Shown piece after piece: positions 939-46,178 of a DNA stretch of 56,047 bases. The DNA is taken from assembly GCF_900499075.1 (NCBI RefSeq), contig NZ_UIHC01000019.1, positions 1-56,047 on the forward strand. The letters run 5' to 3'. Within the stretch, counting starts at the first letter, position 1; each line of letters starts with the position of its first letter. The position numbers were made by a program, and so were the translations under genes. Below the pieces are notes generated by a model, which saw only the letters and a program-made list of their open reading frames with translations, was not told the origin of the DNA and searched no databases. The DNA comes from Roseinatronobacter ekhonensis (GTDB lineage: Bacteria; Pseudomonadota; Alphaproteobacteria; Rhodobacterales; Rhodobacteraceae).

Positions 939-1263
939 GACCCATCCTCTCATCTTGTTTTCAAATTCCCGGCACATTTTTTTTGTGTCGTACAGGCTGC
1001 TCGATAGACGGCTTTTGTCGGCCGGGACTATGTGGGTAGCCTAACATTGCTCCTTTGCAGATGCGAGACTGGCGCACACGTAAAGATTGCTTGTCCGCCT
1101 GTGTTGCGAAAACACAACAAAGACATCGGCGCACGCCCCGAGACAGGCCGGAAGCGCCCGCAGAAATACAATTTCATTTCAATTCTGCGGCATCCGGCTA
1201 TTCTTTGACATCTATTTCCGACGGTTTCATGCCGTCCGCTTTGCGAACCAAGAGCTTATACGA
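939..1263. other. Intergenic region between divergent omp and vgrG genes
   Basis: 325 bp without a convincing gene. It must hold the promoters of both divergent genes, but I see no clear -35/-10 pair or sigma-54 site. A short palindrome (GTGTT, 5-base loop, AACAC) lies near 1101-1115. An in-frame extension of vgrG into this region reads as unrelated, low-quality sequence. Confidence 0.5.
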
Positions 1264-3108
1264 ATGATTTCTCAAGACGACAGGCTTGGCAAACTGCATG
1301 CTCCGGGCACCGATCTTGCGCTGATGGCGTTTTCGGGGCGCGAGGGGATCAACATGATCGGCGGCTTCGAGGTCGATTGCCTGTTGCCGACCGGCCAGCT
1401 GGATGCGGATGATGTCCTCGGGCGCAATCTTTGGGTTGAAATGCGAACCATTGATCCGGCCCATCCCGCGCGCATGTTTGACGGCGTGCTGTGCGAGGTG
1501 CGCGAACTGGGTCCGGTCTGGGGCGGCGCAGGCTATGCGCTGGTTCTCAGGCCATGGCTGTGGCTGTTGGGGCTGCGGACCAACCAGCGCATTTTCCACG
1601 AACAGACGCCCCTACAGATCCTTGAGGCGATTTTCGCGGAATATGGCTTTCCGCATGACAGCCTGCTGCAGGGCAGCTACCCGGTGCTTGAATACACCGT
1701 CCAGTATGATGAAACCGATCTGGCCTTCGCCACGCGGCTGATGGCGCACTACGGGATCAACTATTGTTTCCGCTACGAAGGCGGCACGCACCGCGTCGTT
1801 CTGTTTGACGAGGTCGACAGCCTGCCTGAAGTGCCCGGCACGACTCGCCCGATCCGGGCCACTGACCGGCAGTACCGCGACCAGTTGGAACATCTGCATT
1901 CCTGGCGCGTCGGGCGGAAGGTGACGACCGGACGTGTCGCGCTGACCGACTATAACTTCACGGCCCCGCGCAGCGCCATGCTGGCAGAACAGGCCGACAG
2001 CGCGGGACATCCGTTCGACGATATCGAAAGCTTCCAGTTTCCCGGTCGCTACCCGGATCAGGGGGCCGGACGCAGCCTTGCGCAATTGCGCCTGAACCAG
2101 GCCCGCGCCGCGGATGGACGGCATCGCGCGCAAGGTGACAGCCTTGGCCTGGCGGCGGGGCTGCGCATGACGTTGCGCGACCACCCCGACCCCGCCATCG
2201 ACGGGCGCAGCTATCTTGTCACCCAGGCAGAGCATAAATATGTCTCTGAAGGGTATCGCACGGGCGATGGCGGCACGGCGGACCGCGACAGCTACCAAGG
2301 CGTGTTCGAGTTTCTGGACACTGACCGCCCGATGGTGCCCGATGCCGCCCCCGCCGCCCCGCGCGTGCAGGGTCCGCAAACTGCCATCGTCGTCGGCGAG
2401 GGCGAGATCGATTGCGACGAATACGGCCGCATCCTTGTGCTGTTCCACTGGGACCGCGACACCGCGAAATCCATGCGCTGCCGCGTGGCGCAAAGCTCTG
2501 CGGGCAATGGCTGGGGCAGCATGATCGTCCCGCGCGTGGGCATGGAGGTGGTGGTCGAATTCATCGGCGGCGACCCCGCCTGCCCGCTTGTGACCGGCTG
2601 CGTCTACAATGCCGAGAATATGCCCCCCTTCGACCTGCCGGGCGCAAATATGGTCATGGGGATGAAATCCAACAGCACACCGGGCGGGGACGGCTATAAC
2701 GAACTGGTCTTCGATGACACCGCAGGCAAGGAGGGCGTGCGCCTACATGCCCAATACGACCTGACCGCGAAGGTGCTGCATGACCAGACGTGGCATGTGC
2801 TGAATGATCGCGCAACGCAGATTGATAACAATGACAGCCTGAAGGTGAAAGGCACACGCGACAGCCAGATCAGCGGGCACGACACGCTGGATGTCGGGCG
2901 CGAACTGACCATCACGGCAGCCGAGAAGATCACACTGAAGGTGGGCATGAGCTCTATCGTGATGGACGGGTCGTCGATCACGCTCAAATCCCCGACGGTC
3001 GAGGTCAAGGCGGGGATGGAGTTCAAGTCAGAGGCCGGGATGATGTCCCAGCACAAGGCCGGCGCGGTCTATGATATCAAGGGCGCTGTGGTGAAGATAA
3101 ACACGTGA
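1264..3108 (+). CDS. vgrG: T6SS spike protein VgrG
   Basis: 614 residues. VgrG forms the trimeric needle tip of the type VI secretion system and carries PAAR proteins and effectors. The N-terminal half has gp27-like features, including RIFHEQTPLQILEAIF and the ETDLAFATRLMAHYGINY stretch. A gp5-like OB fold follows (EYGRILVLFHWDRD), then repeated beta-helix-type strands near the C-terminus (DTLDVGRELTITAAEKITLK). No extra C-terminal enzymatic domain is visible, so cargo is probably delivered through adaptors. The ATG at 1264 was chosen because upstream sequence is not family-like. The gene is followed in the same direction by the DUF6931 and FHA genes. Confidence 0.95.
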   Translation: MISQDDRLGKLHAPGTDLALMAFSGREGINMIGGFEVDCLLPTGQLDADDVLGRNLWVEMRTIDPAHPARMFDGVLCEVRELGPVWGGAGYALVLRPWLWLLGLRTNQRIFHEQTPLQILEAIFAEYGFPHDSLLQGSYPVLEYTVQYDETDLAFATRLMAHYGINYCFRYEGGTHRVVLFDEVDSLPEVPGTTRPIRATDRQYRDQLEHLHSWRVGRKVTTGRVALTDYNFTAPRSAMLAEQADSAGHPFDDIESFQFPGRYPDQGAGRSLAQLRLNQARAADGRHRAQGDSLGLAAGLRMTLRDHPDPAIDGRSYLVTQAEHKYVSEGYRTGDGGTADRDSYQGVFEFLDTDRPMVPDAAPAAPRVQGPQTAIVVGEGEIDCDEYGRILVLFHWDRDTAKSMRCRVAQSSAGNGWGSMIVPRVGMEVVVEFIGGDPACPLVTGCVYNAENMPPFDLPGANMVMGMKSNSTPGGDGYNELVFDDTAGKEGVRLHAQYDLTAKVLHDQTWHVLNDRATQIDNNDSLKVKGTRDSQISGHDTLDVGRELTITAAEKITLKVGMSSIVMDGSSITLKSPTVEVKAGMEFKSEAGMMSQHKAGAVYDIKGAVVKINT

Positions 3109-10451: not shown

Positions 10452-11315
10452 CTACACGGGCTCGCCATGGGCATCCAGATAGCCAAAGCGCTTCATGACA
10501 GCACCGTGGTCCGCAACGATCCGGACCACTTGGTCCGTGGTCAGCGACTTGCGCCATCCTCCCATCTGCCCGCTTCGGAAGAACTGCTTGGCCTTCGACG
10601 GGCGCTCGCGAAAACCACCGCTTTTTTCCTGATGGGATAGCTTGTCGAATGCGGCAAGAGAGATCGCGCGCGCCAGTTTCTCGTGATCTACCGTCAAACC
10701 AAGCGCGGCGAAGGCGGCGGCAAAGCTCTGCTGCGGCGTGGCGTGCATGTCCTCGTAACGTAAAACATGGCAGGCAATCTCGGTCGCATCCACCCAGCTT
10801 TCGACATGGGAAGACCATGTGCCCATGCGTTGCATCATCTGTGGGTTCAAACCCTTGTCATTGCGCGACAGGCTTGCGTTCGGACTGGACATCAGCTTGA
10901 TGGCGCGATCTATATCCACGCCCAGATGTGCCGCAAAGGATGGGGCCACATCCAGCGGGTTGCGCAGCAGATAAACCGCGCCAGACGTGGCAACCGGGTC
11001 GACAATCGGCTCTCCGGCGTCGTTATACAGATAGGCGTCGTGAATCTTGTGATAGCCCCCCATCCCGTCATGCAGGGCGCTCCAGCGATAAACATGCGGG
11101 CGCAGACGCTCAATCTCTGCCGGGGTCAGATCTGCCGTGTCAAACCCTGCGACGTCATCGACCCATAAACGGCTGCTGCCGATCATGCCTGTCTGCAAAG
11201 CGTTCAGATCAACCTCGGACTCGCCCCCGTCCAGATAGGCACTCAGCACCACGCGAAACCAAGTGTTCCCCGATTTCGGGTAAGAGGCCAGCCAAGACAG
11301 CCCCTGCTGAGTCAT
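10452..11315 (-). CDS. Sulfotransferase, lasso-cluster tailoring candidate
   Basis: 287 residues. Sulfotransferases move sulfate from PAPS to hydroxyl or amine groups. The 5'-phosphosulfate loop SYPKSGNTWFR is at residues 11-21 and the 3'-phosphate-binding RNPLDVAPSF is at about 118-127. A C-terminal KSGGFRERPSKAKQFFRSGQ matches the family's PAPS-binding Gly-rich end. Its ATG overlaps the stop of the upstream kinase gene (ATGA), so the two are translationally coupled. That coupling suggests it acts on the same product as the kinase, here proposed to be the lasso peptide. A glycan substrate is the alternative, since glycan genes lie nearby. Confidence 0.85.
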   Translation of the reverse strand: MTQQGLSWLASYPKSGNTWFRVVLSAYLDGGESEVDLNALQTGMIGSSRLWVDDVAGFDTADLTPAEIERLRPHVYRWSALHDGMGGYHKIHDAYLYNDAGEPIVDPVATSGAVYLLRNPLDVAPSFAAHLGVDIDRAIKLMSSPNASLSRNDKGLNPQMMQRMGTWSSHVESWVDATEIACHVLRYEDMHATPQQSFAAAFAALGLTVDHEKLARAISLAAFDKLSHQEKSGGFRERPSKAKQFFRSGQMGGWRKSLTTDQVVRIVADHGAVMKRFGYLDAHGEPV

Positions 11316-12226
11316 GCCACCGGAACTTTCGACATGTCCTCAAGCAACAAGTCGACCAATCCGTCAATATCGAACCCCGCGTCGGGTCGTCTGACCTGCG
11401 CCATATGCACCAGCCCGGCAAAGCGCCCGCATTGCGCCAGATGATCGGCGTTCAGGTCCATCCCCTCCATGAACCGGCGGCGATAGGTATTTGCCATAAG
11501 CGGCCCGAAACGCGCGATCCCGTTCAGATGGGTCAGCTCAAAATCGGGCTTCTCATGCTTGCCCAGCAAGAACACCCACTTTACTGGACGCGGCGCGCTG
11601 ACCAGAGTTTTCGGCAAAGGCAGATTGAACTTTTCCATTTGCGGGCGGATGCGGTCCAATGATCCGGTCGATAGCGCAAGACGCTCTGCCGCGTCGCGCC
11701 ATATCTTGATGCGCGGAATACCGGGCAGCGCCTGCCCGTCGGCATTGACCGCGACAACATCGTCGGCCAGCACATTGTAGCCCCGCGCTGAAAACGCCGC
11801 CGCCAGAGTGGATTTTCCGGCGCCCGACACGCCAAGGCACAGCATACAGGCGTCGCCCATATCAACCGCGTTTCCGTGCAGCACCAAAAAGCCGCGCTGA
11901 AACAGCAGCGCCCCGATGGCAGAGCCAAGCAGGAACACGCGCACCGATGCCATGTCGATACCGCCGATCGGGGCGACCCGAATGGTCCGGCCACCCTCTA
12001 TCAGAAACCATGCAACATCCGGCACGAACAGCATGAACGCGGTCGGTGTTGTCCAAGCGTATGGTGACAACTGGACCCACTCGTCGCCGGTCGGAGCCGA
12101 GGTCAGGGTAGGATCGCGCGTAATGCTCAGATCGGCGGGCTGGGCCAAGCCCGAAAGCTGCGGCAATTCCGGCAGATCAATCTCGGACGAAATGGTCAAA
12201 CCATAGGCTTGGTAAAGGGTGGGCAT
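11312..12226 (-). CDS. HprK-like serine kinase of lasso-peptide type
   Basis: 304 residues. The C-terminal half resembles HPr kinase/phosphorylase. It has a P-loop GVSGAGKST at residues 132-140 and LADDVVAV at 153-160, matching the HprK Walker-B region. No HPr or PTS genes are nearby. Kinases of this kind occur in paeninodin-type lasso clusters, where they phosphorylate the C-terminal Ser of the precursor. The precursor here also ends in Ser. It is divergent from the B1 gene across a 168-bp intergenic region and coupled to the sulfotransferase. An HPr-related kinase of exopolysaccharide loci is the alternative. Confidence 0.85.
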   Translation of the reverse strand: MPTLYQAYGLTISSEIDLPELPQLSGLAQPADLSITRDPTLTSAPTGDEWVQLSPYAWTTPTAFMLFVPDVAWFLIEGGRTIRVAPIGGIDMASVRVFLLGSAIGALLFQRGFLVLHGNAVDMGDACMLCLGVSGAGKSTLAAAFSARGYNVLADDVVAVNADGQALPGIPRIKIWRDAAERLALSTGSLDRIRPQMEKFNLPLPKTLVSAPRPVKWVFLLGKHEKPDFELTHLNGIARFGPLMANTYRRRFMEGMDLNADHLAQCGRFAGLVHMAQVRRPDAGFDIDGLVDLLLEDMSKVPVA

Positions 12227-12394
12227 AGCAATACAACGCTTGGGAAAGGGTGCCGCCCTTCTGGCCCATCAGGCCTGGAGTTGCAATCACTCACACACAC
12301 AAAGCGGGCAGATTGCCAAAGCGAGCATCATCGGATAACTGCTGTCAGACAGTGCACACTCGCATCGCTGACACGCAGACAACAGGTTTACACG

Positions 12395-12670
12395 ATGACG
12401 AACACCCCCGCCTTTCAACGCGCGACGAATGTGGTCTCTGCCGAGATGGATGGCGAGACTGTCATCATGAGCCTTGAAAAGAACGTCTATTTCGGACTAT
12501 CCGGCAGCGGTGGCCGGGTTTGGGATCTGCTGGAAACCCCTGCCACTCTGGCCGAACTGGTCGATACCTTGTCGCAGGAATACGATGTGACCCCCGAAAC
12601 CTGTCGCGCCGATGTGATGGCTGTTCTGGACGATATGCAGGCCAATGGGCTTGTGGTCAGCGTTGGCTGA
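12395..12670 (+). CDS. PqqD-like RiPP recognition protein (lasso B1)
   Basis: 91 residues from the ATG at 12395. It is a compact PqqD/RRE fold with VVSAEMDGETVIMSLEKN, YFGLSGSGGRVWDLL and a C-terminal helix. Such proteins bind the leader of ribosomal peptide precursors and hand it to the protease and cyclase. The gene overlaps the B2 peptidase gene by 26 bp, the usual split B1/B2 arrangement of lasso clusters. An in-frame extension upstream is possible but is not family-like. Confidence 0.9.
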   Translation: MTNTPAFQRATNVVSAEMDGETVIMSLEKNVYFGLSGSGGRVWDLLETPATLAELVDTLSQEYDVTPETCRADVMAVLDDMQANGLVVSVG

Positions 12671-13151
12671 GCGTGCCCAAAGCCTGTTTGCCGTTCTGCG
12701 GCGCAAGGGGCTTAGCCTGCTATCCCAGCCGGGCCTTGCTCTGGCGCTGTTGGTCCCGGCTTGGGTTTTGCTGGGCGTGTTCCGCCTGCTGATCCTTGCC
12801 GTGCCGCTGAAATACCTGCACCGCGCTTACGGGCATGATATCGGCATTTCCAGCGTGGTGCCGTTGATCGACCAGACGCAAGAGCGGCGCGCGCGGGCGG
12901 TTAAAGCTGCGATCGGCATCGCTGCAACCTACAGCCCTTGGGCGGTCAATTGCTACCCACAGGCGCTTTGCGCGCGCGCATTATTGGCGGTGCTTGGGGT
13001 TCCGCATGTCATCTGTTTCGGGATGCGGCGCAAGAATGGCGCGGTGGAAGCCCATGCTTGGGTTGCGGCGGGTCCCGTTGCGATCACCGGTGGTCGCGGG
13101 TTCGAGGATTTCACGGTTGTGCGCGCCTTCGTATCGCATACGTTTGCCTGA
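12645..13151 (+). CDS. Lasso peptide leader peptidase B2 (transglutaminase-like)
   Basis: 168 residues, the normal size for a B2 protein. The Cys-protease core is visible: NCYPQALCARALLAVLGVP with Cys103 and VEAHAWV with His137; Asp155 in GFEDF could complete the triad. The hydrophobic N-terminus (about 30-55) is typical of the family. B2 cleaves the leader after the Thr-x pair of the precursor, once B1 has bound it. It overlaps the B1 gene and must be co-translated with it. Confidence 0.92.
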   Translation: MGLWSALAERAQSLFAVLRRKGLSLLSQPGLALALLVPAWVLLGVFRLLILAVPLKYLHRAYGHDIGISSVVPLIDQTQERRARAVKAAIGIAATYSPWAVNCYPQALCARALLAVLGVPHVICFGMRRKNGAVEAHAWVAAGPVAITGGRGFEDFTVVRAFVSHTFA

Positions 13152-13478
13152 CGCCAAAGCTGCTGATCGGAAGCGCTTATCCGACGCGCAAACCGAAGGC
13201 CAAAGACGCTTTAACTGCCAGCGGCAACCGTGAGAGCGGTAGCAAGATTTGTCGCATCCGACAAGGCACCGCCAGCTCCCGACTGTGTCAGGTTTGACGC
13301 CGACCCGAACGCAATTAGACAGGGTTGCTGCCAAGGGGATTTGGGCTGTTTCGGGTCGGGCTTAAATTCGTTCGCTTAGGCCACACACACCTCCATTTAG
13401 TAAGAAACACGGCAAAGGTTTCCCATGCCGTGTTAAGCCATCACACATAGCGCCGCCGCATTACAGCGACACCTCAGA
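13152..13478. other. Region between convergent B2 and precursor genes
   Basis: 327 bp with no convincing gene on either strand. It contains the stem-loop at 13406-13434. A longer-range inverted pair, CGACCCGAA near 13302 and TTCGGGTCG near 13349, might end B2 transcription. Confidence 0.5.
13406..13434 (-). terminator. Stem-loop downstream of the lasso precursor
   Basis: A perfect 9-bp stem (AACACGGCA / TGCCGTGTT) surrounds an 11-base loop, 45 bp beyond the precursor stop on the minus strand. A modest T-rich stretch follows in that direction. It probably terminates the precursor transcript or stabilises its 3' end. Confidence 0.55.
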
Positions 13479-13640
13479 TCAGGACTGACCTTCGCCTATG
13501 CCGCCGTTCGTGGTGTTAACTGTATCGCTCTTGACACCCGGCGCATTCTGCATGGTCAATGTGGCCGCATCACCAAACACGACCAGTGCCGGCTTGTCCC
13601 ATGCTTTCAGCTTTGCTTCAACATGATGTTTCTGCTGCAT
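13479..13640 (-). CDS. Lasso peptide precursor (53 residues)
   Basis: The ATG at 13640 is preceded by GGAGG with 7-8 bases of spacing, and the gene ends in TGA at 13479-13481. The leader contains W14-D-K-P17-A-L19 then G23 and T29, fitting the lasso leader pattern Y/W-x2-P-x-L-x3-G-x5-T-x. Cleavage after Thr29-Met30 would give a 23-residue core. That core begins QNAPGVKSD, so Asp is at core position 9, the ring-closing position, and the tail ends GEGQS. The TM cleavage dipeptide, Asp9 and terminal Ser match my recollection of paeninodin. The N-terminal Gln is unusual, because Gly or Ala is more common. It lies on the strand opposite to B1/B2 and the nucleotidyltransferase. Confidence 0.82.
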   Translation of the reverse strand: MQQKHHVEAKLKAWDKPALVVFGDAATLTMQNAPGVKSDTVNTTNGGIGEGQS

Positions 13641-13697
13641 CTTCTCGCCTCCAGTAAATAAATCCGGGAATCAACTCGCGGATGTGTACCTGTGATA

Positions 13698-13719
13698 GGG
13701 TTTTCCTACATCAAAACCC
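13698..13719. promoter_or_regulatory. Perfect inverted repeat upstream of the lasso precursor
   Basis: GGGTTTT and AAAACCC flank an 8-base spacer, 58 bp upstream of the precursor ATG. It lies in the divergent region shared with the nucleotidyltransferase gene. It could be an operator. No convincing -35/-10 pair was identified. Confidence 0.35.
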
Positions 13720-13899
13720 TGTCGTATCGCAAGCGCAAAGCCTCTACTTATACCATATTTTGCGTATTTTCCGCCGGCTGTGCCGTTTGTGCACGCATCT
13801 GCGGCCCGCAAAGCCAGAGTTCCGCGTTGACCCGGCTTGCCCCACCTGTCACTGGCAGGCTACCTTGCCCCTACCCTATATCATGACAAGACCATCCCC

Positions 13900-15147
13900 G
13901 TGACCCCAACCGCTGCCACAGACACAGATTTCGGACCGGAGATGTTGTTGCTGGACCTGTTGTCGGAACGGCTGACAGACCCGTGTCCCAAGCTGTCGGG
14001 CACGGATTGGGCGCGGATCGTCACCCTTGCCAAGCAACAGCGCGTCTTGCCGTGCCTTGAACCCGCGCTGGACAAAGCCGGGTTGGCCCTGCCCGCCGCC
14101 TGTGCGATTGCGCCTGCAACACGGCGCGGTTGGCAGATGCGCGCGCTCTCTCTGCAAGCAGAGACGTTGCGGGTGCATACCCTGTTGCAGGATGCCGGAA
14201 TCGCGCATGTGTTTCTGAAAGGGATTGTACTGGCCGCCTTCGCCTATCCCAACCCCGCGATGCGCCCGATGCGCGATCTGGATCTGTTGGTCCGCCCCAC
14301 AGATCTGCCCCGTGCGCGCAAGATTCTGGCGTTGGCGGGCGGCGAATTGCAGCACATGGCACACAAATCTGCACAAAACGCTCCCGAAGAGGCGAAACAC
14401 GCGACTCCGGTCTGGTCCCCGGGTCAGGTCGTGTCGGTGGAACTCCACGGCCACCTGACCGAACCTTTTGCCGACCTCGACCCGCACGGTTTCGCGCGGT
14501 TCGAGCGCGAGATTTGGGATCGCGCCACAACAGTGTCGCTTGGCGGTCACGATCTGCCCTGCCTTGCGCCCGAAGACATGTGCCTGCATCTGGTGATGCA
14601 CGGGCTATACGATCATGAACTGAATAACGGGCCTGTCTTTGTGACCGATCTGCTGCACCTTTTGCGCGCCAGCCCGTTGGACGCAGTCGCCTTGCAAAAA
14701 CGCGCGGTGGATCTGGGTATCGCGGACGGGTTGGCGCTATCGCTTTCGCTGCTGCCCCATGGGCTTGTTGCCGCGCAGGGCTTCGACTTGGATGGTCGCG
14801 CCCTGCCGCGCGATATGGCTGCGGCGCTGCTGTTTCAGGATGGCAGGTTCCGCACCGACCTGCGCCTTGCCGCCGATCTGGCCGAACGCGGCACAATGGC
14901 CCGTTTCAGTCTGCTTCTGCGCAAGGTCTTCGCCCCGCGCCATACCATGCTGGACCGCTGGCACCGCGAACAGGGGCACGAAGCGCCTGCCCCTGCAGCG
15001 CCCCGGCTTTGGGTCTGGTTCCTGCGCACACGCCGCCGCCAGATGCGGGCCGCTCAGGGCCGGTCCGACAGTCAGCTTGCGCTCGGTCCCGACAAATTGC
15101 GCGCCCATTTGCTGGACCTGCGCGCCTTGCGCACCGGCCGCAAATGA
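13900..15147 (+). CDS. Nucleotidyltransferase-family protein, lasso tailoring candidate
   Basis: About 415 residues from a GTG at 13900. ATG at 13942 and TTG at 13837 are alternatives, and none has a strong ribosome site. The core FLKGIVLAAFAYPNPAMRPM followed by RDLDLLVRP is the DxD-type metal site of the uncharacterised nucleotidyltransferase family (PF14907 type). Members are found in lasso clusters that also encode kinases, and in some exopolysaccharide loci. It is translationally coupled to the next glycosyltransferase gene (ATGA). In this setting it may add a nucleotide or similar group to the peptide. This role is inferred. Confidence 0.8.
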   Translation: MTPTAATDTDFGPEMLLLDLLSERLTDPCPKLSGTDWARIVTLAKQQRVLPCLEPALDKAGLALPAACAIAPATRRGWQMRALSLQAETLRVHTLLQDAGIAHVFLKGIVLAAFAYPNPAMRPMRDLDLLVRPTDLPRARKILALAGGELQHMAHKSAQNAPEEAKHATPVWSPGQVVSVELHGHLTEPFADLDPHGFARFEREIWDRATTVSLGGHDLPCLAPEDMCLHLVMHGLYDHELNNGPVFVTDLLHLLRASPLDAVALQKRAVDLGIADGLALSLSLLPHGLVAAQGFDLDGRALPRDMAAALLFQDGRFRTDLRLAADLAERGTMARFSLLLRKVFAPRHTMLDRWHREQGHEAPAPAAPRLWVWFLRTRRRQMRAAQGRSDSQLALGPDKLRAHLLDLRALRTGRK

Positions 15148-16037
15148 GCCCGCGACCACGACTGACGATCCTGACGGCAAGCTGGGATCGCGCTCACCTG
15201 CTCGGGCGGTTGCACGCGTCCCTGATGCGCCAGCCTGTCGCGCACGGGCAGGTGGAATGGCTGGTCGTCGACGATGGCTCTACCGATGAAACGCACGCCG
15301 AACTGGCGCGCCTGTCCGCACAACCCGGCACGATACCGATGCGCTATGTGCGCCAGCCCCATGGCGGCAAGCACCGCGCGCTGAACACCGGATTTGCCGC
15401 AGCGCATGGCGACTGGATCGCGGTTATCGACAGCGACGACTGGTGCCGCGACAACGCCCTTCCGGCTGTGCTGGCCCTGCTGGACCAGATTGCGCAGGAA
15501 GATGTCTTTGCCGCGATCCTGCCGCTGATCGTTCCCAAGGCCGCGCGGCAATATTGCTTTCGGCAGCCTGACCGCGCCCTGACCTACACAGAGCGCGCAA
15601 ATACCGAACCGGCCTTCGACTGCACCCTGATTTTCCGGCGAGACACCGACGGCCTGCGATTCCCGGAATTTCCGAAAGAGGATTTTCTGGCCGAAGCCGC
15701 GCTGCTGTTCCAGCTTGGGCGCGACCGTCGTGTCTGGCTGTCCAACCATGTTCTTGTCGAAGCCGAATACCAGCCCGACGGCCTGTCGGCGCATATCCTG
15801 CGCAAGCGTATGGCGTCGCCGGTTGGCGCGTGCCATGGGTATCAGGTCACGCTTGCCTGCCGGCTGCGCCCTGCGCTGAGACTGCGGACGCTGGCCAATT
15901 ACGGACGGTTCTGGTGGCATGCGCAGCTGCGCCGCAGCCGCCCACCTGCGCCCGCAAGCCTGCCCCAAGGATTGGCGCTGCTGCCCGGGGCGCTGTTTTA
16001 CCTGATCGACGTGGCATTCAGCGCGGCACGGCGTTAG
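15144..16037 (+). CDS. Family 2 glycosyltransferase in the lasso cluster
   Basis: 297 residues. The N-terminal GT-A fold has LTILTASWDRAHLLGRL, EWLVVDDGSTDET and VIDSDDWCRDNA (the DxD motif that binds the nucleotide sugar). No membrane helix is obvious except a possible hydrophobic C-terminus. It starts inside the stop codon of the nucleotidyltransferase gene, so the two form a unit. Glycosylation of the lasso peptide is possible. Use in the nearby surface glycan is equally plausible. Confidence 0.85.
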   Translation: MSPRPRLTILTASWDRAHLLGRLHASLMRQPVAHGQVEWLVVDDGSTDETHAELARLSAQPGTIPMRYVRQPHGGKHRALNTGFAAAHGDWIAVIDSDDWCRDNALPAVLALLDQIAQEDVFAAILPLIVPKAARQYCFRQPDRALTYTERANTEPAFDCTLIFRRDTDGLRFPEFPKEDFLAEAALLFQLGRDRRVWLSNHVLVEAEYQPDGLSAHILRKRMASPVGACHGYQVTLACRLRPALRLRTLANYGRFWWHAQLRRSRPPAPASLPQGLALLPGALFYLIDVAFSAARR

Positions 16038-18009: not shown

Positions 18010-19668
18010 CTACCTGAAACCGCTGCCGAACGAATTCGACAGCGATCGACGGGACGGTTCAGGCGCCGGGGGTGGCGGAGCCGGTGCTGCCGGGCGCGGG
18101 GTAGAGGTGGTGCGTGCACGGGTCACCGGCGCCGCCGCGGGCGCGGCACAAATCTCGCCCTCTGCAGCGCTGACCAGTCGCCACATCTCTGCGGTGGGAG
18201 TGGTATCTTCGCCAGTGTCACCGGTCTCGCTTAGAAACGCCCGCATGGCGCGGGCTGACCCGCCGCCCCAAGCCCCGTCAACCCGCATCCGGTAACAGCC
18301 GACGCGCTGCAATTCGGTCTGCAAAGCCCTTGCCAGATCCTCTGGCGCCTCTTCGGGGGTGGCATCGGTGCCGATCAGTCGCCGCAACCGGATATCGGGC
18401 GCGGGGTCGGGCGACAATGCGGCGAGCCGCGCGATCGGCGCATCGGGGATGAAGGGCGCGCGCGAACCCTGCGCCGCCTCGACCGAAAGCTGCTGCAGTG
18501 GCAGGGCTCGTGTCCGCCCCATTTCGGGCTCGGCTGTGGTCGCGTCCGGCAACGCCGCGACAACCATGGGAGCAGCCGGATCGGGTTCCGGGCTTTGCTC
18601 GGCCACAACGGGTGCAACGGGGTCCGGCACAGGGTCGTCTTCGATCATGATGAAGTCGAATTGTGGTGCCTCGACCGTGGGATCAGCGGCCGGTGATGGC
18701 GCGTCATCTGCCGCAGAAACAGTCGGCGCATCTATGGCAGCTTGCGCTCCGGACGCAGCCATTGCTTGCAGGTCATCACGACTGATCTGGGCGCCCTGCC
18801 GGGCCCATGAACTCAGGAAGAAATCCTGAATCTCGGGGTCCATCTGTGCAACCTGCGCAATCTCATCGGGACCTGGCATGAAGGGCCGGAAAAAGAACGA
18901 CCCTGTGAGCGATGACTGATCCCAAGGGGTTTGCCGCCCAAGCGTGGCGGTTTCGACCGCGTTGCGCACGGCGATCATCATTTCCGAAATCGACTGCCCT
19001 TCGGTCCCGATATTGTCGAGCAGAGCGCGTGTAAACGGGCTGTTTTCGCCCACGCGGCCATCATAGCTCAGGTTGCCCGGCTGGGTCGAGAATGCGACAA
19101 ATGTATCGCGCCCCGTGGCAGGCGCCGCCAGTCCGAGCGAGCCGTCCTCGCGCAGATTGGGCGGCAGCGGGTTGTTGCGGCAGGCATCCAGAAGGATGAC
19201 GGTCTGGCGCCCCGGTGCAGACAGTCGCGAGATTATAGTGTCCAGCCGCTGCGTTTGCGCGGCAATATCCCCGGCGCTGGACAGAACCGCGTCCACCGGC
19301 GCCAGATAGTTGATCCCCCCCAACTGAAAACCGTGGCCGGAGTAATAGAACACCACTTCCGCGTTCTCGCCGGCCCGCTCGCCGAAATTGCGGATCGTGG
19401 TGTCGAAAACCTCGCGCGCACTGTTCAAAAGCAGGGTCACTTCAAAGCCCTGCGTTTCCAGCCTATCCGCCATATCGCGCGCATCCCGTCCGGCATTGGG
19501 CAAATCTTCCAACGTGTCATAGCCCGAATTGCCAACCACAAGCGCCACACGGCGCGGCGTTTCTGCGGTCGTTTGCGCATAGGCCGCACCAACGCCGACT
19601 GCGCAAAGCGCAAGCAAGGCAGCCAACAGGGCCGACCGGGGTGTAACAAGATAACCAAAAAGACTCAT
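18010..19668 (-). CDS. Secreted caspase-like peptidase with peptidoglycan-binding-like tail
   Basis: 552 residues. A signal sequence (about 1-31, ending AAYAQ) precedes a caspase/metacaspase domain (about 38-260). The dyad is visible: His112 in YYSGHGFQ and Cys163 in ILLDACRNNP. A disordered acidic/Pro linker (about 300-440) follows, then a C-terminal repeat-like domain (LQRVGCYRMRVDGAWGG) resembling peptidoglycan-binding domain 1. Bacterial caspase-like proteins cleave after basic residues, and their substrates here are unknown. It is divergent from the OmpA-family gene and upstream of the transglycosylase. Confidence 0.85.
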   Translation of the reverse strand: MSLFGYLVTPRSALLAALLALCAVGVGAAYAQTTAETPRRVALVVGNSGYDTLEDLPNAGRDARDMADRLETQGFEVTLLLNSAREVFDTTIRNFGERAGENAEVVFYYSGHGFQLGGINYLAPVDAVLSSAGDIAAQTQRLDTIISRLSAPGRQTVILLDACRNNPLPPNLREDGSLGLAAPATGRDTFVAFSTQPGNLSYDGRVGENSPFTRALLDNIGTEGQSISEMMIAVRNAVETATLGRQTPWDQSSLTGSFFFRPFMPGPDEIAQVAQMDPEIQDFFLSSWARQGAQISRDDLQAMAASGAQAAIDAPTVSAADDAPSPAADPTVEAPQFDFIMIEDDPVPDPVAPVVAEQSPEPDPAAPMVVAALPDATTAEPEMGRTRALPLQQLSVEAAQGSRAPFIPDAPIARLAALSPDPAPDIRLRRLIGTDATPEEAPEDLARALQTELQRVGCYRMRVDGAWGGGSARAMRAFLSETGDTGEDTTPTAEMWRLVSAAEGEICAAPAAAPVTRARTTSTPRPAAPAPPPPAPEPSRRSLSNSFGSGFR

Positions 19669-35621: not shown

Positions 35622-37520
35622 ATGATTGGCGCTTATCTTCTTTGGGACAGCCCCGACCCCGGACCCGACCGGGCGCATGCCTTTGCCGGAGCCTTGCGCA
35701 CGGGCCTGACCAACCCGACCTGCCACCGCATGAACGGCGCGTTGCTGTGCGATGGGGCGGCACCTGCGCAGAGCGCTCTGCCCCGAATGGCGGATGGCAC
35801 AGCGGTTCTGTTCACGGGTTTTATTTCCAACCGCCCCGCGTTGCGGTCTGCGCTTGGCGCGGCACCGGTGTCTGACGCGGCGCTCTATGCGGCGGCACGC
35901 TCGGCATGGGGGGACACCGCCGACACCCGCGTCCTGGGCGAGTACGCTGCGATCCTGATCCCGCCACATGGCGGCGAGTTGCATATTCTGCGCAGTCCGA
36001 TCTTCGCACCCACACTGCATATCTGGCATGACACTGACCGGTGCATCGTCGCCAGCACCGCCGCCGCGCTCTTTGCGACCGGCGAAGTCACGCGCGAACT
36101 CGACGAGGAAAAACTGTCGGACGGCCTGTTTCTGAACTATTGCGACGAGCGGCGCGGCTGGTTCACAGGCGTCACCCGTTTGCCGCGCGGCGCACGCGCG
36201 CGCATCACGCGCGAACGGATGCACGAAGAGACGTGGTATCGGCTGGATGACATCGCACCTCTGAAGCTGAAATCCGACGCCGACTATGTCGAGGCCGCAG
36301 ACGCGCTGTTCGCAGAGGCGACAGACGCAGTGTTAGACGGGTTCGACACGCCGCTTGTCAGCTTGTCGGGCGGATACGATTCGCAAGCGGTCGCAGCATA
36401 TGCCATGCGCAGCCGCCCCGGCATGCCGCTTCTATCGGCCACATCTGTCCCGCAAGCTGACTGGCGCCCCCCGGCGCGCAGCCGCGCCTTGGTCGATGAG
36501 CGTCCCCATGTCGAAGCGCTGGCGGAAATGTATCCTCAACTGCACCCGCATTGGGTGGACGGGGCGGGACGCGATTTATCGCATCATCTGCGCGACATGT
36601 TCGATAGGGCGATGGCCCCGCCGCGCAATGTCGGCAACCTGCATTGGGCGCATGATATCCGCCAGCTTGCGCGGCGCGAAGGCGCAGATGTTGTCCTGAC
36701 CGGGGCGATGGGCAACCTGACGTTCAGCTATGACGGCACGGGCTACCTGCCGGACCTGTTCCGCACGGGCCACTGGCTGCGACTGGCGCGCGAATTGTGG
36801 CTTGGCGGCCCCCGCGCGGCAGTGGGCAAACGGGCATTTCGGCAAGCGGTTCTGCCGGTCTTGCCCCCTGCCCTACAAAAACCGCTCATGGCGTGGCGCG
36901 ACGGGCCGTTCGAGGACCCGCTGCAAAGCTGGTCGCCGCTGCGGGCCGATTACGCGCGGGAAAGCGGGGTTCTGGACCGCGCGGCACACCAGGGGTTCGA
37001 CCCGTTTTTCCTGCCGATCGGATCGGTACGGGAATTTCGTACGCGGATGATGTCCAATGCCGTCAACGAGGCGGGCGACATAACCGGCGCGATCGAACAG
37101 ATCCACGGGGTGCCCATGCGCGACCCGACACGTCACCGCCCGTTTCTGGAGTTCTGCTTTGCGATCCCGCCCCGCCAATACCTGAATGACGGGGTCAAAC
37201 GGTGGCTGGCCAAGCGCCTGCTTGCGGGCAAGGTTCCCGACATGGTGCTGAATGAAACGCGCCGCGGGCAGCAGGCAGCCGACTGGTCCGCCCGCATGCG
37301 CCCGGCCCGTGCGGCACTGCTGGACGAGTTGGAGATGCTGGCGCGCGATCCCGATGTTGCGGGACGGATTGACACCGAGCGTCTGCGCCGCGGGCTCGAA
37401 GCGCTGCCAGAGGATGACACCAAGATCACCAAAGCTGATACGATGGCCTATCACGCCCTCACCCGTGGCGTGGTCTCGGCGCGTTTCATCGGCTATCTGA
37501 AAGGCCGCAACGATATCTGA
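35622..37520 (+). CDS. Lasso cyclase-like asparagine synthetase homologue
   Basis: 632 residues. The N-terminus reads MIGAYLLWDS, with no Cys2, so the glutaminase half is inactive. The synthetase half keeps the ATP-binding loop SGGYDSQ (249-255), EFCFAIPPRQYLNDGVKRWL and NETRRGQQAADW. The last motif and the missing Cys are features I associate with lasso isopeptide-forming cyclases, which activate the Asp/Glu side chain as an adenylate and close the ring on the core's N-terminus. It is the only good cyclase candidate here, but it lies 20 kb from B1/B2. A glycan-modifying homologue is the alternative. Confidence 0.75.
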   Translation: MIGAYLLWDSPDPGPDRAHAFAGALRTGLTNPTCHRMNGALLCDGAAPAQSALPRMADGTAVLFTGFISNRPALRSALGAAPVSDAALYAAARSAWGDTADTRVLGEYAAILIPPHGGELHILRSPIFAPTLHIWHDTDRCIVASTAAALFATGEVTRELDEEKLSDGLFLNYCDERRGWFTGVTRLPRGARARITRERMHEETWYRLDDIAPLKLKSDADYVEAADALFAEATDAVLDGFDTPLVSLSGGYDSQAVAAYAMRSRPGMPLLSATSVPQADWRPPARSRALVDERPHVEALAEMYPQLHPHWVDGAGRDLSHHLRDMFDRAMAPPRNVGNLHWAHDIRQLARREGADVVLTGAMGNLTFSYDGTGYLPDLFRTGHWLRLARELWLGGPRAAVGKRAFRQAVLPVLPPALQKPLMAWRDGPFEDPLQSWSPLRADYARESGVLDRAAHQGFDPFFLPIGSVREFRTRMMSNAVNEAGDITGAIEQIHGVPMRDPTRHRPFLEFCFAIPPRQYLNDGVKRWLAKRLLAGKVPDMVLNETRRGQQAADWSARMRPARAALLDELEMLARDPDVAGRIDTERLRRGLEALPEDDTKITKADTMAYHALTRGVVSARFIGYLKGRNDI

Positions 37521-37618
37521 CCGAAGTGCGCGGGCTGTGACTACCGGCCTGCAAAGGCCCTTGAGTGAAACGTCAAGCCACGCTAGCGTTGGGCTATATT
37601 TGATCTCGGGATTTGAAA

Positions 37619-38098
37619 ATGCGCCCAGCGGCACGATTAAGCGACATGCATGTTTGCCCGATGGTTATTCCGGGCACTCCCCCGATCCCGCATGTGGGCG
37701 GGCCGATCATGCGCGGAGCCCCTACTGTGCTGATCGGCGGCATGCCCGCGGCGCGCCTGTCCGACACGTCGCTGTGCACTCCGGTCGGCATTCCCGACCC
37801 GATCGTATCCGGCTCTGCGACGGTAGTGATCTCGGGACTGCCCGCCGCACGGTTGGGCGATTCCACAGCGCATGGTGGCAAGATTACCTCTGGCTGCCCG
37901 ACGGTATTGATCGGCGATGGCGGCCATTCCAGCGCGGCGCGCGGTGGCACGGGACGCGGCAGCGACGGCACGGCCCAGCATGACACGCCAGAGGCGATGG
38001 CCAGCGGCAAGGCCTTGCGCGCCCCGCAGCGGCAGGCCCGCACGTTGCGGCGCGCCTCTGCAAGCGGGGCCGCCTTTTGTGAATTGTGCAATCCATGA
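37619..38098 (+). CDS. T6SS PAAR-domain tip protein
   Basis: 159 residues from the ATG at 37619. The PAAR fold covers most of the protein, with motifs HVGGPIMRGAPTVLIGG, MPAARLSD and LPAARLGDSTAHGGKI; it sharpens the VgrG spike and carries effectors. A basic, Ala-rich tail (about 105-159) follows and is not obviously enzymatic. The stop overlaps the start of the DUF4123 gene. A VgrG is encoded at the far left of the window. Confidence 0.92.
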   Translation: MRPAARLSDMHVCPMVIPGTPPIPHVGGPIMRGAPTVLIGGMPAARLSDTSLCTPVGIPDPIVSGSATVVISGLPAARLGDSTAHGGKITSGCPTVLIGDGGHSSAARGGTGRGSDGTAQHDTPEAMASGKALRAPQRQARTLRRASASGAAFCELCNP

Positions 38099-38592: not shown

Positions 38593-38608
38593 AACGGGGC
38601 GTTGCGCG

Positions 38609-41198: not shown

Positions 41199-41219
41199 TG
41201 GTGCAAGGACAGATCGAAC

Positions 41220-42005: not shown

Positions 42006-43844
42006 TCAGGTCGTTGGATGCACGCTGGCAATCCTCTGGAACGTGTCGTTTTCGGCCATGAGGTCATCCCACGGTGCGAAGCCTGCGAGACGGCCCTTGT
42101 CGAGCACGATGATCCGGTCGCAGTTGCGCACGGTGCTCAGGCGGTGGGCGATCAGCAGGATGGTCTTGTCGCCGGGCAGCGCGTCGATGGCCGACATCAC
42201 GTCGCGCTCGGTGGCATTGTCGAGCGCGCTGGTCGCTTCGTCGAACACGATCAACTCGGCATTGTGATACAGCGCCCGCGCGATCCCAAGCCGCTGGCGT
42301 TGCCCGCCCGACAGCCGCACGCCGCGTTCGCCCACCGGGGTGGCGTAGCCCTCCGGCAGGTCCGACAGGATGAACTCATGCAATTGCGCGCGTTTCGCGC
42401 AATCCTCGGCCCGCGCGGTATCGACCTGCTCGGGTGCGATGCCAAGGGCGATATTGCTGGCAATACTGGAATCGGTCAGGAATATCTCCTGCGGGACATA
42501 GCCCACGCTCTGCTGCCAGGCGCGCAGGTTGTCCTCGGTGATGACGGTGTCATCGGCGCGCAACGCGCCCGCTTGCGGGCGCAACAGGCCCAGCGTGATA
42601 TCGGCCAGCGTCGTCTTGCCCGCGCCTGTCGAGCCGACAATCCCGATCCGCTCGCCCGCGCGGATGGTCAGGCTGACATCGCGCAACCCGCGGTCGGTCG
42701 TGTTGGGATAGCTGTAGCTGACCCCCTCGAACCGCAACTCCCGCGAGAGACCAAGACCCGGCGGGATCGACTCTGGCAACGGCGGCAGGTCGCGCATCTG
42801 AGCGAGTTCCTGCGTCACATGCCGCACGACGCTTGCACCGAAGGCCAGCTTGGTCGCCGAGCCGTATAGCTTGCCCAGCTCTGGCAGGATGCGTTGTCCG
42901 GCAAAGGCGAATACACCGATCAGCGGCAGCAATTCCCCCAAGGCCGCGCCCTGTTCGTAGCGCGCCCGGTCGACCAGCAACAGGCAAACCACAATAATCC
43001 CGCCGAAGGCCACGGACTGGACCACGAATTGCGGAAGACTAGAGACCACGTTGGCCTTGACCTGCACATCCGCCATGGCAAGCGAGGGACCGTGGTAGCG
43101 TTCCAGCGTCTGGTGTTCGCGGCCTGTGATCTTCATGCTCTTGATGCCGCCAAACGCCTCGCCGACAATGCGGAACCGGGCCCCGTTATGCTGGATGCGG
43201 GCCGATCCCAAGCGGTCCAGAAACGCGCGTGACCACAGGAAGATTGCTCCATAGCTGCCACCCAGCATCAACAAGGCGATCAGCGCGATCACCGGATCGA
43301 CCCAGATCACCACGGTCACAATTGCGAGCGCCGCGAGGGTGCTGGCGATCAGTTCCGATGCAGGACGGAAGAAATTTGCGACGATCTGCGAACTTTCCGT
43401 CAGGATGGTCTTGTTAAGTTTCGTCGTGTGATTGTTCAGAAAATAGACATAGCCCGACCGCAAGTATCGTTCTAGCAAACGAATGCTGACCGAATAGGTC
43501 AGCATGTTTGTGAACTGCAAGACGAGATATGTCTTGAGCATCTGGATCAGGTTCGACAGAGCAATCACGAGAAAAGAGCCGATGCCGAGTGCCACAAGGA
43601 ACGCGTAGTCGCTCTGGAATCCGAATGTCTCGTACAGCCACAACAAGCTGGAATTCCGCTGAATGGTGTCGCGATCTGCAAGCACCGCAAGGAACGGAAA
43701 GATCGAGACAACCATGAAGGCCGAGGAGAGCGCCGCCAGGACAACGACGAACAACATCCAGCGTGCGCGCCGTTTTTCAGCGGAATCGAGCAGGTTCCAC
43801 GCCTTTTTCCACACGCCGAGATTGGAGGTCGGAAAGCTGGTCAA
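42006..43844 (-). CDS. PglK-like ABC exporter, copy 1
   Basis: 612 residues. Six membrane helices (about 30-340) precede an ATPase domain (about 365-600) with GSTGAGKTT, LSGGQRQRLG, LIVFDEATSALD and AHRLST. As a one-chain half-transporter in a glycan locus, it resembles PglK flippases that move lipid-linked oligosaccharide across the membrane. The start appears to be TTG at 43844, matching the homologous start of copy 2. Its ATPase half is almost identical in DNA to copy 2, while its membrane half is not. Confidence 0.88.
   Translation of the reverse strand: MTSFPTSNLGVWKKAWNLLDSAEKRRARWMLFVVVLAALSSAFMVVSIFPFLAVLADRDTIQRNSSLLWLYETFGFQSDYAFLVALGIGSFLVIALSNLIQMLKTYLVLQFTNMLTYSVSIRLLERYLRSGYVYFLNNHTTKLNKTILTESSQIVANFFRPASELIASTLAALAIVTVVIWVDPVIALIALLMLGGSYGAIFLWSRAFLDRLGSARIQHNGARFRIVGEAFGGIKSMKITGREHQTLERYHGPSLAMADVQVKANVVSSLPQFVVQSVAFGGIIVVCLLLVDRARYEQGAALGELLPLIGVFAFAGQRILPELGKLYGSATKLAFGASVVRHVTQELAQMRDLPPLPESIPPGLGLSRELRFEGVSYSYPNTTDRGLRDVSLTIRAGERIGIVGSTGAGKTTLADITLGLLRPQAGALRADDTVITEDNLRAWQQSVGYVPQEIFLTDSSIASNIALGIAPEQVDTARAEDCAKRAQLHEFILSDLPEGYATPVGERGVRLSGGQRQRLGIARALYHNAELIVFDEATSALDNATERDVMSAIDALPGDKTILLIAHRLSTVRNCDRIIVLDKGRLAGFAPWDDLMAENDTFQRIASVHPTT
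42028..42764 (-). repeat. Long inverted repeat, left arm (ABC ATPase half)
   Basis: 737 bp matching 45420-46156 in the opposite orientation. I counted about 14 mismatches and no indels by eye, about 98% identity. It covers the ATPase half of copy 1 only. Confidence 0.9.
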
Positions 43845-44339: not shown

Positions 44340-46178
44340 GTGACCAGCTTACCGCTCTCTAATCTCAGCGTATGGAAAGTGGCGTGGAGCCTGCTGACCA
44401 GAGCCGAGAAGCGCCGCGCGCGCTGGATGCTTGGGATCGTGGTTTTCGCGGCGCTCTCCTCGGCATTTATGGTCGTGTCGATTTTTCCGTTCCTTGCGGT
44501 GCTCGCGGATCGTGACCGCATACACTCCACACCGGCCCTGCAATGGGCCTATGACTTTTTCGGATTTCAGAGCGACTACGGGTTCGTCATTGGTCTCGGC
44601 GTTGCGTCGCTGCTGGTCATCACTCTTTCGAACCTGATCCAGCTTCTGAAAACCTATCTCGTTTTGAAATTCACGATGTTGCAGATGCACTCGATCTCTT
44701 TGCGTCTGTTGCAAACCTATCTATGCCAACCTTACGAGTTTTTTCTGGACCGCCATAGCGGGCATCTGAGCAAATCGATCCTCGATGAAAGTCTGCAGGT
44801 GGTCAGTTCGTTCTTCCGTCCCGCCGCAGAAATGGTCGCGAGTGCGCTTTCGGCGCTGGCCATCCTCGCGGTGATAATCTGGGCGGACCCGGTTATCGCC
44901 TTTATCGCGCTGGCGGTCCTCGGTGGCAGCTACGGGATATTGTTTCTGGGGTTGCGCGGGGTTCTGGACCGGCTTGGTATGGCGCGTGTGCGCCACAATT
45001 CCGGGCGCTACCGAGTCACCAACGAGGCGTTCGGCGGAATCAAGGATATCAAGGCGCTTGGTCGCGAGCGTTTCCTTCTGTCCCGGTTCCAGAAAACCGC
45101 GTTGGACATGGCGCATGTGCAGGTGAAGGCGAATGCGATTTCGGCATTGCCGCAATTCGTCATGCAATCCGTGGCGTTCGGCGGGATCATCCTGCTGTGC
45201 CTGTTGCTTGTGGACCGGGCCAGCTACGAGGGTGGCACCGGTCTGGGCGCGCTTGTGCCTGTGATCGGGGTGTTTGCATTTGCGGGCCAGCGGATCTTGC
45301 CGGAATTGTCGAGGCTCTACAGTTCCGCCGCAAAGCTGGAATTCGGCACCGCCGTCGTGCGCCATGTGGCGGGAGAGTTGCGGGTCCCTGTTCCGTCATC
45401 AGGTCCGCCGAAAACCATGCCGCCGGGTCTTGGTCTCTCGCGGGAGTTGCGGTTCGAGGGGGTCAGCTACAGCTATCCCAACACGACCGACCGCGGGTTG
45501 CGCGATGTCAGCCTGACCATCCGCGCGGGCGAGCGGATCGGGATTGTCGGCTCGACAGGCGCGGGCAAGACGACGCTGGCCGATATCACGCTGGGCCTGT
45601 TGCGCCCGCAAGCGGGCGTGTTGCGCGCCGATGACACCGTCATCACCGAGGACAACCTGCGCGCCTGGCAGCAGAGCTTGGGCTATGTCCCGCAGGAGAT
45701 TTTCCTGACCGATTCCAGTATTGCCAGCAATATCGCCCTTGGCATCGCACCCGAGCAGGTCGATACCGCGCGGGTCGAGGATTGCGCGAAACGCGCGCAA
45801 CTGCATGAGTTCATCCTGTCGGACCTGCCGGAAGGCTACGCCACCCCGGTGGGCGAACGCGGTGTGCGGCTGTCGGGCGGGCAACGCCAGCGGCTGGGGA
45901 TCGCGCGGGCGCTGTATCACAATGCCGAGTTGATCGTGTTCGACGAAGCGACCAGCGCGCTCGACAATGCCACCGAGCGCGACGTGATGTCGGCCATCGA
46001 CGCGCTGCCCGGCGACAAGACCATCCTGCTGATCGCCCACCGCCTGAGCACCGTGCGCAGCTGCGACCGCATCATCGTGCTCGACAAAGGCCGCCTCGCA
46101 GGCTTTGCACCGTGGGATGCCCTCATGGCCGAAAACGACACGTTCCAGAGGATTGCAAATGCCCATCCCGCATCTTGA
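44340..46178 (+). CDS. PglK-like ABC exporter, copy 2
   Basis: 612 residues from a GTG at 44340, the same length as copy 1. Six helices and one ATPase domain are arranged as in copy 1. The membrane half differs from copy 1 at roughly 40% of positions, whereas the ATPase half is nearly unchanged. The galE start at 46159 lies inside its last codons (20-bp overlap), so it leads the galE-to-glycosyltransferase operon. The different membrane half probably handles a different lipid-linked glycan. Confidence 0.88.
   Translation: MTSLPLSNLSVWKVAWSLLTRAEKRRARWMLGIVVFAALSSAFMVVSIFPFLAVLADRDRIHSTPALQWAYDFFGFQSDYGFVIGLGVASLLVITLSNLIQLLKTYLVLKFTMLQMHSISLRLLQTYLCQPYEFFLDRHSGHLSKSILDESLQVVSSFFRPAAEMVASALSALAILAVIIWADPVIAFIALAVLGGSYGILFLGLRGVLDRLGMARVRHNSGRYRVTNEAFGGIKDIKALGRERFLLSRFQKTALDMAHVQVKANAISALPQFVMQSVAFGGIILLCLLLVDRASYEGGTGLGALVPVIGVFAFAGQRILPELSRLYSSAAKLEFGTAVVRHVAGELRVPVPSSGPPKTMPPGLGLSRELRFEGVSYSYPNTTDRGLRDVSLTIRAGERIGIVGSTGAGKTTLADITLGLLRPQAGVLRADDTVITEDNLRAWQQSLGYVPQEIFLTDSSIASNIALGIAPEQVDTARVEDCAKRAQLHEFILSDLPEGYATPVGERGVRLSGGQRQRLGIARALYHNAELIVFDEATSALDNATERDVMSAIDALPGDKTILLIAHRLSTVRSCDRIIVLDKGRLAGFAPWDALMAENDTFQRIANAHPAS
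45420..46156 (+). repeat. Long inverted repeat, right arm (ABC ATPase half)
   Basis: Partner of 42028-42764, with equal length (737 bp). The match begins just before the ATPase domain and stops 3 bases before the galE start codon, after which the two C-termini differ. Confidence 0.9.

Follow-up and report, generated by a model that had tools for sequence, protein, structure and literature searches.

Lasso peptides of the paeninodin type, described from Paenibacillus, combine a precursor with a WxxP leader and a C-terminal Ser, separate B1 and B2 proteins, and an HprK-like kinase (PMC8498205, PMC13381572; these and the other papers are cited from excerpts). Kinase and C-terminal Ser recur in Proteobacteria in the SyanK clusters of Sphingobium yanoikuyae, and the kinases of paeninodin-type and proteobacterial clusters act on the linear, not the threaded, peptide (PMC8498205). 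Pseudomycoidin of Bacillus pseudomycoides involves a kinase, PsmK, and a nucleotidyltransferase-type protein, PsmN, which is required for attaching one or two hexoses to the Ser phosphate, true nucleotidyl transfer being left open (PMC9266682). HPr kinase and sulfotransferase genes were noted in 2014 in some Gram-positive lasso clusters, their role being unclear (PMC4289311), with a second mention, for Firmicutes, in the paeninodin study (via PMC8498205). A further point of comparison is the linear polyphosphorylated peptides (LPPs) of Bacilli, whose clusters hold HprK, an RRE, an NTP transferase and an MsbA-like exporter in a capsule-locus setting, with a SipW-like peptidase, a YxxP leader and no cyclase (PMC13381572). 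The subject of this report is a candidate lasso peptide locus in a 56,047-nt stretch of Roseinatronobacter ekhonensis, contig NZ_UIHC01000019.1, called the window throughout and supplying all coordinates.

The locus comprises the precursor gene A1, a second precursor-like frame A2, the leader-processing genes B1 and B2, the putative tailoring genes K (kinase), ST (sulfotransferase), NT (nucleotidyltransferase) and GT2 (glycosyltransferase), and the cyclase homologue C (Table 1). As judged by sequence comparison, it is probably a functional, physically split lasso peptide locus, with phosphorylation, glycosylation or sulfation, and ring closure by C as proposed below. Its product is likely a lasso peptide with a 9-residue ring and a phosphorylated C-terminal Ser, and may possibly be glycosylated and sulfated. 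The paeninodin ring likewise closes at residue 9.

Compared with the described systems, the locus shares the leader, the separate B proteins, the kinase and the C-terminal Ser of the paeninodin type. Paeninodins, however, have been called restricted to Bacillota (PMC13381572), whereas the window is alphaproteobacterial; A1 has no match to the paeninodin model NF033524, ST and GT2 are added, and the cyclase homologue lies 22.5 kb from B2. Kinase and nucleotidyltransferase-type protein are common to pseudomycoidin, for which the excerpt of PMC9266682 mentions no sulfotransferase or GT2; the window has both. Among proteobacterial kinase clusters, one of a Sphingomonadales metagenome-assembled genome (MAG; locus L050) has K and no mapped ST, whereas the window has ST, NT and GT2. 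Both gene types of the Gram-positive kinase/sulfotransferase clusters are present (PMC4289311, PMC8498205), but here ST stands directly behind K in a set of alphaproteobacterial cyclase loci. Unlike the LPPs, the window has a cyclase homologue. Searches of open-licence literature, seen in excerpts, turned up no sulfated lasso peptide, nor any paper joining Roseibaca and lasso peptides.

Precursors and leader-processing proteins

A1 has an ATG start behind a strong ribosome-binding site, GGAGG at 13652-13648. Its leader, ...WDKPALVVFGDAATLTM, follows the pattern W..P.L...G.....T, whose Thr precedes the predicted 23-residue core QNAPGVKSDTVNTTNGGIGEGQS by two residues. In this core Asp9 is the predicted ring acceptor and Ser the C-terminal residue. 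The first-pass annotation had held that this leader fits the lasso pattern exactly. The motif and the penultimate Thr bear this out, but Trp replaces Tyr at the first position, and the 'rhodolasso' model NF033534 matches the leader alone, at 16.7 bits against a cut-off of 30. In the paeninodin-like precursors of Bacillota this Trp is almost always present (PMC13381572). A homologue of A1 occupies the same place in the same-genus Roseibaca domitiana V10 (G250; L039:7590-7739(-)), with a ratio of nonsynonymous to synonymous substitution (dN/dS) of 0.39 over 47 codons. Since it sits in the same place, and since Asp9 and the last Ser are retained although the core has diverged, A1 is more than a chance reading frame; the 53-codon gene proposed earlier is a real precursor gene. 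It is thus conserved beside B1/B2 in a related strain, with no other match among the 248 sampled genomes of the family. Counts over family (248), genus (37) and class (385) genomes include the own genome.

With A1 as query, a second match appeared in the own genome at 13241-13339 (E 7.7e-4), about 0.1 kb downstream of A1. This frame, A2, had been missed in the first-pass annotation; it encodes a lasso-type leader and the 23-residue core SGAGGALSDATNLATALTVAAGS, again with Asp9 and final Ser. Both genes have intact copies in G250. Between A2 and its G250 copy the proportions of nonsynonymous and synonymous differences are 0.28 and 0.71 over 53 codons, which suggests past constraint, and A2 is a probable silenced precursor copy. 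The penultimate Thr and the leader pattern, including the W of WxxP, are common to A1, A2 and both G250 precursors, and Asp9 and the final Ser are present in all four of these Roseibaca cores. The A1/A2 inverted repeat lies in a stretch, 13396-13445, that folds at −18.3 kcal/mol (z −4.1). This hairpin is a possible weak terminator; a promoter and terminator scan around A1 listed nothing, including at 13406-13434.

B1 misses the Bacillus-type lasso PqqD model NF033536 by 1.8 bits, and among solved structures TbiB1 (8.8e-11) is its closest relative. Its start is the ATG at 12395; the sequence analysed began at 12398. B2 passes the lasso B2 model NF033537, is 81% identical in G250, and keeps Cys103 and His137, which are invariant in 7/7 aligned sequences including its own. 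The assignment to lasso peptide biosynthesis made in the first-pass annotation is upheld by these two proteins.

Similar short frames with [WY]xxP leaders stand beside related cyclase and B1 genes. An Asp or Glu lies 19-22 residues beyond the Pro of the motif (range tested, P+18..P+22) in all 24 precursors of a set that includes A2 and was picked by hand, not blind, with the acids visible during picking; shuffled cores gave a mean of 8.6 with an acid (sd 2.2), and 0/5000 shuffles reached 24. A final Ser ends 20 of the 24, whereas the frequency of Ser over the other core positions is 0.12. All 15 precursors from loci with a mapped K have it, and 5/9 from loci without one (the contig of L049 is truncated at the K site). 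NF033524 matched neither A1 nor the two G250 precursors; 3/10 scanned precursors (L107, L118, L120) matched it, all below cut-off. A precursor profile search of 13 loci gave weak matches, the best being L020:2154-2453(-) (15.1 bits, E 0.0034). Separately, at L117:8419-9100 a single cyclase gene is directly preceded by three precursor-like genes in tandem, and L104:8483-8725, just upstream of a cyclase and outside the counted 24, has a W..P leader, an acidic core residue and a final Ser.

The candidate cyclase and its linkage

The first-pass annotation treated 10452-16037 as the lasso cluster. All seven genes that it listed are present at the coordinates it gave, as family searches confirm, and A1, B1 and B2 support the assignment. 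The interval contains no cyclase, however, and so could not alone make a macrolactam. The own genome has three Asn_synthase matches, and C, on the same contig as B2, is likely the lasso cyclase of the A1 locus, a conclusion based on the rank of its best model, on an absent Cys2 and, above all, on linkage. Among NCBIfam models, C matches the lasso cyclase model NF033535 best (2e-36, 125.8 bits); it has an SGGYDS motif (SGGxDS type) and begins MIGAYL, without the Cys2 of glutamine-hydrolysing relatives. The exopolysaccharide amidotransferase at 24018-25997 was set aside as a cyclase: it retains Cys2 (MCGIAG), its best model is TIGR03108, and its asn_synth_AEB score is above cut-off. Because it outscores C on NF033535, the score on that model alone cannot single out the lasso cyclase.

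C is 86% identical in G250, where ST-K-B1-B2-A2-A1-NT-GT2 is kept and C again lies 22.5 kb from B2. ST, K, B1, B2, NT, GT2 and C have dN/dS of 0.07-0.21 between the two strains. In a Rhodobacteraceae MAG (G264), B2-B1-K-ST-C is contained in 4.7 kb, with a cyclase 53-54% identical to C and no NT or GT2 beside these genes. Elsewhere, G041 has K-ST-C at one contig's end and NT-ABC-B2-B1 on another contig, a Pseudorhodobacter MAG (L049) has B2-B1-C-ST on a contig that ends where K would be, and L050 has A-B1-B2-C-K with a cyclase of 47% identity. The C homologue is thus linked to A/B1/B2 on the same contig in the window and G250, and is adjacent in G264, L049, L050 and several class loci. Split lasso loci may be more common. 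In G154, locus L020 (contig C10) reads NT-B1-...-K-ST-ABC with no cyclase nearby; its candidacy as a cyclase-free locus was dropped, a 613-aa cyclase homologue being present on another contig.

B2 matches (E<=1e-3) occur in 10/248 family and 5/37 genus genomes, two of the five being weak. C matches occur in 4/248 family (E<=1e-30), 4/37 genus (E<=1e-20) and 14/385 class genomes (E<=1e-40), and all four of the family genomes with C also have a B2 match. Searches of genome contigs found no relative with B2 alone as query and five loci with the cyclase alignment as query; plasmid searches gave one weak B2 match (Butyrivibrio) and none for A1.

All 19 C places outside the own genome were examined in a class survey, each with flanks of about 9 kb; they come from 13 genomes, some of which are close relatives. 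Genes were mapped with profiles from the alignments made here. B1 was mapped in 13/19, K in 11/19 (leaving out a weak, distant match in L115), ST in 10/19, B2 in 9/19 and NT in 3/19 (L102, L103, L107). In each of the ten loci where ST was mapped, ST immediately follows K in the same orientation, and the K-ST gap is −115 to +11 nt over 12 pairs, by open frames. C and ST are tail-to-tail, at most 45 nt apart, in 9/24 loci examined. Apparent kinase-sulfotransferase fusions in L107 and L108 proved to be artefacts of overlapping long frames. One further locus, L109 (G598:C3:1-19900), is a dense array of lasso-type genes, in which 20 kb hold three K-ST pairs, as many B1 and cyclase-like genes, and two B2 genes.

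Tailoring enzymes, proposed pathway and alternatives

Several candidate tailoring enzymes stand beside the precursor gene, as first annotated, and K, ST, NT and GT2 all have family matches. The best solved relatives of K include HPr kinases, its P-loop residues are invariant in 7/7 aligned sequences, and it is predicted to phosphorylate the C-terminal Ser. The nearest solved relatives of ST are Teg12 and Teg14, which are glycopeptide-antibiotic sulfotransferases. YPKSGNTWFR and YED, which we take to be the motifs that bind 3'-phosphoadenosine-5'-phosphosulfate (PAPS), are invariant in 5/5 aligned sequences, and ST is predicted to be a PAPS-type sulfotransferase. PAPS synthesis is plausible because the own genome has an adenosine-5'-phosphosulfate kinase domain (3.1e-68). 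NT is a possible counterpart of PsmN, the likeness being at family level (PF14907). The earlier label of nucleotidyltransferase holds for the family, NTP_transf_5, but the protein may add a hexose to the Ser phosphate, not a nucleotide; the excerpt of PMC9266682 leaves both open. GT2 possibly extends the sugar. The combination of tailoring genes, which had been called unusual, is less so than claimed, because kinase and sulfotransferase are a recurrent pair, found together in 10/19 class C loci and noted in Gram-positives (PMC4289311, PMC8498205).

In the proposed pathway, B1 would bind the WxxP leader of A1 and present the linear precursor, whose last Ser would be phosphorylated by K, as reported for kinases of the paeninodin type and of Proteobacteria. 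This phosphate would receive a hexose from NT, possibly aided by GT2, in the manner suggested for PsmN, and ST would sulfate the peptide or the sugar. B2 would cleave after ...LTM, removing the leader, and C would join the new N-terminus to Asp9, giving a 9-residue ring and a 14-residue tail.

A number of observations weigh against this scheme. C falls far below the NF033535 cut-off (125.8 against 525 bits), a score test that carries no biological definition and that no match in any of seven searched genomes exceeded. On that model the amidotransferase at 24018-25997 scores higher than C in both comparisons made (156.5 against 125.8 bits and 140.7 against 102.1 bits), and the model also matches, below cut-off, in 9/14 control genomes. 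The sole solved match of the C profile is the hydroxyamidotransferase 7ylz (2.4e-6), and none of the mapped partners was found in 5/19 class C loci. B2 has a Gly 12 residues after its His, presumably where the catalytic Asp of McjB sits. Residue 1 of the A1 core is Gln, which is unusual as the first ring residue. The A1 search of 248 family genomes matched the own genome alone, the acids of the 24 precursors were in view when these were picked, no convincing precursor was found in the examined stretches of G264, G041 and G154, and the best profile match, in L020, sits inside an unrelated gene region. A2 has no ATG, GTG or TTG start and an in-frame stop just upstream. No lasso-specific exporter was identified.

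Several of these points would fit a core that stays linear, giving a phosphorylated linear ribosomally synthesized and post-translationally modified peptide like the LPPs of Bacilli, with C an asparagine-synthase homologue of the exopolysaccharide locus. There is no cyclase in 10452-16037, C scores far below the lasso-cyclase cut-off and under the AsnB homologue at 24018-25997, and LPP clusters share HprK, NTP transferase, RRE and MsbA-like exporter with the window (PMC13381572). C, however, is conserved in G250 with the same split, adjoins B1/B2/K/ST in G264 and other relatives, and lacks Cys2, while Asp9 is fixed in all four Roseibaca precursors; B2 is also present here, in contrast to LPPs, which have a YxxP leader and depend on a SipW-like peptidase. 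A linear product is quite improbable on this evidence.

A second alternative is that A, B1, B2, C and K form a genuine lasso core, and that ST, NT and GT2 act on the neighbouring exopolysaccharide or some other surface polymer, not on the peptide. The surroundings of the locus would suit such a role, as would the G264 genes without adjoining NT or GT2, the mapping of NT in 3/19 class C loci, and ST homologues in 93/385 class genomes, which are so common that the presence of ST alone is uninformative. The constant position of ST behind K in the ST-bearing class C loci argues otherwise, as does the membership of NT in the kind of nucleotidyltransferase implicated in pseudomycoidin (PMC9266682), and we consider this arrangement unlikely; GT2 is the weakest link to peptide tailoring. 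A decaying locus without any product in this strain is very improbable: although A2 is startless, the genes extend over 27 kb and B2 matches in few genus genomes, A1 retains its strong ribosome-binding site and the enzyme genes are open and under the constraint given above. A functional split lasso locus remains the preferred reading.

Genomic setting and significance

The lasso genes are flanked by exopolysaccharide-type genes and parts of type VI secretion (VgrG, PAAR, DUF4123, ImpA_N), and exopolysaccharide genes occupy the stretch between B2 and C, as they do in G250. A1/B1/B2/K/ST/NT/GT2 and C are spread across 27 kb. The G264 lasso genes apparently adjoin chain-length-determinant-like and type VI secretion-like genes, as judged by eye. 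Capsule loci often host paeninodins and LPPs of Bacilli, in a role described as unknown (PMC13381572).

Table 1. Features of the candidate lasso locus in the window.
Feature	Position	Strand	Evidence
ST, sulfotransferase	10452..11315	-	PF00685 3.6e-17; 4-nt overlap with K
K, HprK-like kinase	11312..12226	-	PF07475 5.3e-7, 29.8 bits, below cut-off of 33.3
B1, discrete RRE, PqqD-like	12395..12670	+	PF05402 2.8e-21; NF033536 78.2 bits, cut-off 80
B2, transglutaminase-like leader peptidase	12645..13151	+	NF033537 67.8 bits, above cut-off of 33
A2, second precursor-like frame	13211..13375	-	Startless; found by A1 search
9-bp perfect inverted repeat between A1 and A2	13406..13434	-	RNA hairpin fold
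A1, precursor, 53 aa	13479..13640	-	Open reading frame, ribosome-binding site, NF033534 leader match below cut-off, G250 homologue
NT, NTP_transf_5 protein	13900..15147	+	PF14907 2.8e-46; 74% in G250
GT2, glycosyltransferase	15144..16037	+	PF00535 7.7e-24; 79% in G250; start overlaps NT stop
C, lasso macrolactam cyclase homologue	35622..37520	+	NF033535 2e-36, best model, below cut-off
MsbA/PglK-like ATP-binding cassette (ABC) exporter, candidate lasso exporter	42006..43844	-	Family match
Paralogous ABC exporter, likewise only a candidate	44340..46178	+	Family match

The lasso-linked ABC protein of G041 matches the ABC exporters of the window slightly less well than another contig of the own genome (127 vs 135 bits). 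These two exporters are paralogues in divergent orientation, 64% identical over the first 355 residues and 95% over the last 257, where the DNA is 96% identical, which suggests gene conversion of the ATPase half. Directly after C, 37613-41972 encodes a PAAR protein (PF05488), a DUF4123 protein, a 124-aa frame, and proteins of 740 and 250 aa, the last with no Pfam match; this region resembles an effector module of type VI secretion. On the lasso-gene side lies a VgrG-like spike protein at 1087-3108 (PF05954, PF04717, PF22178), also a part of such a system. A caspase-domain protein is encoded close to the lasso genes, at 18010-19668 (PF00656, 2.4e-34).

As the locus illustrates, an annotation confined to the near surroundings of B1/B2 can overlook a cyclase that lies over 20 kb off. 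The compact K-ST-C arrangement of G264 and the two intact precursors of G250 make the role of sulfotransferases in lasso clusters directly testable, and if ST acts on the peptide, the product would be a sulfated lasso peptide. More tentatively, the K-ST pair may be a coupled one that both phosphorylates and sulfates an alphaproteobacterial lasso family, whose threaded C-terminus would carry a phosphate, sugar and sulfate headgroup; in Roseibaca, the location among exopolysaccharide genes would then suggest that such peptides act at the cell surface or in biofilms rather than in simple antibiosis.

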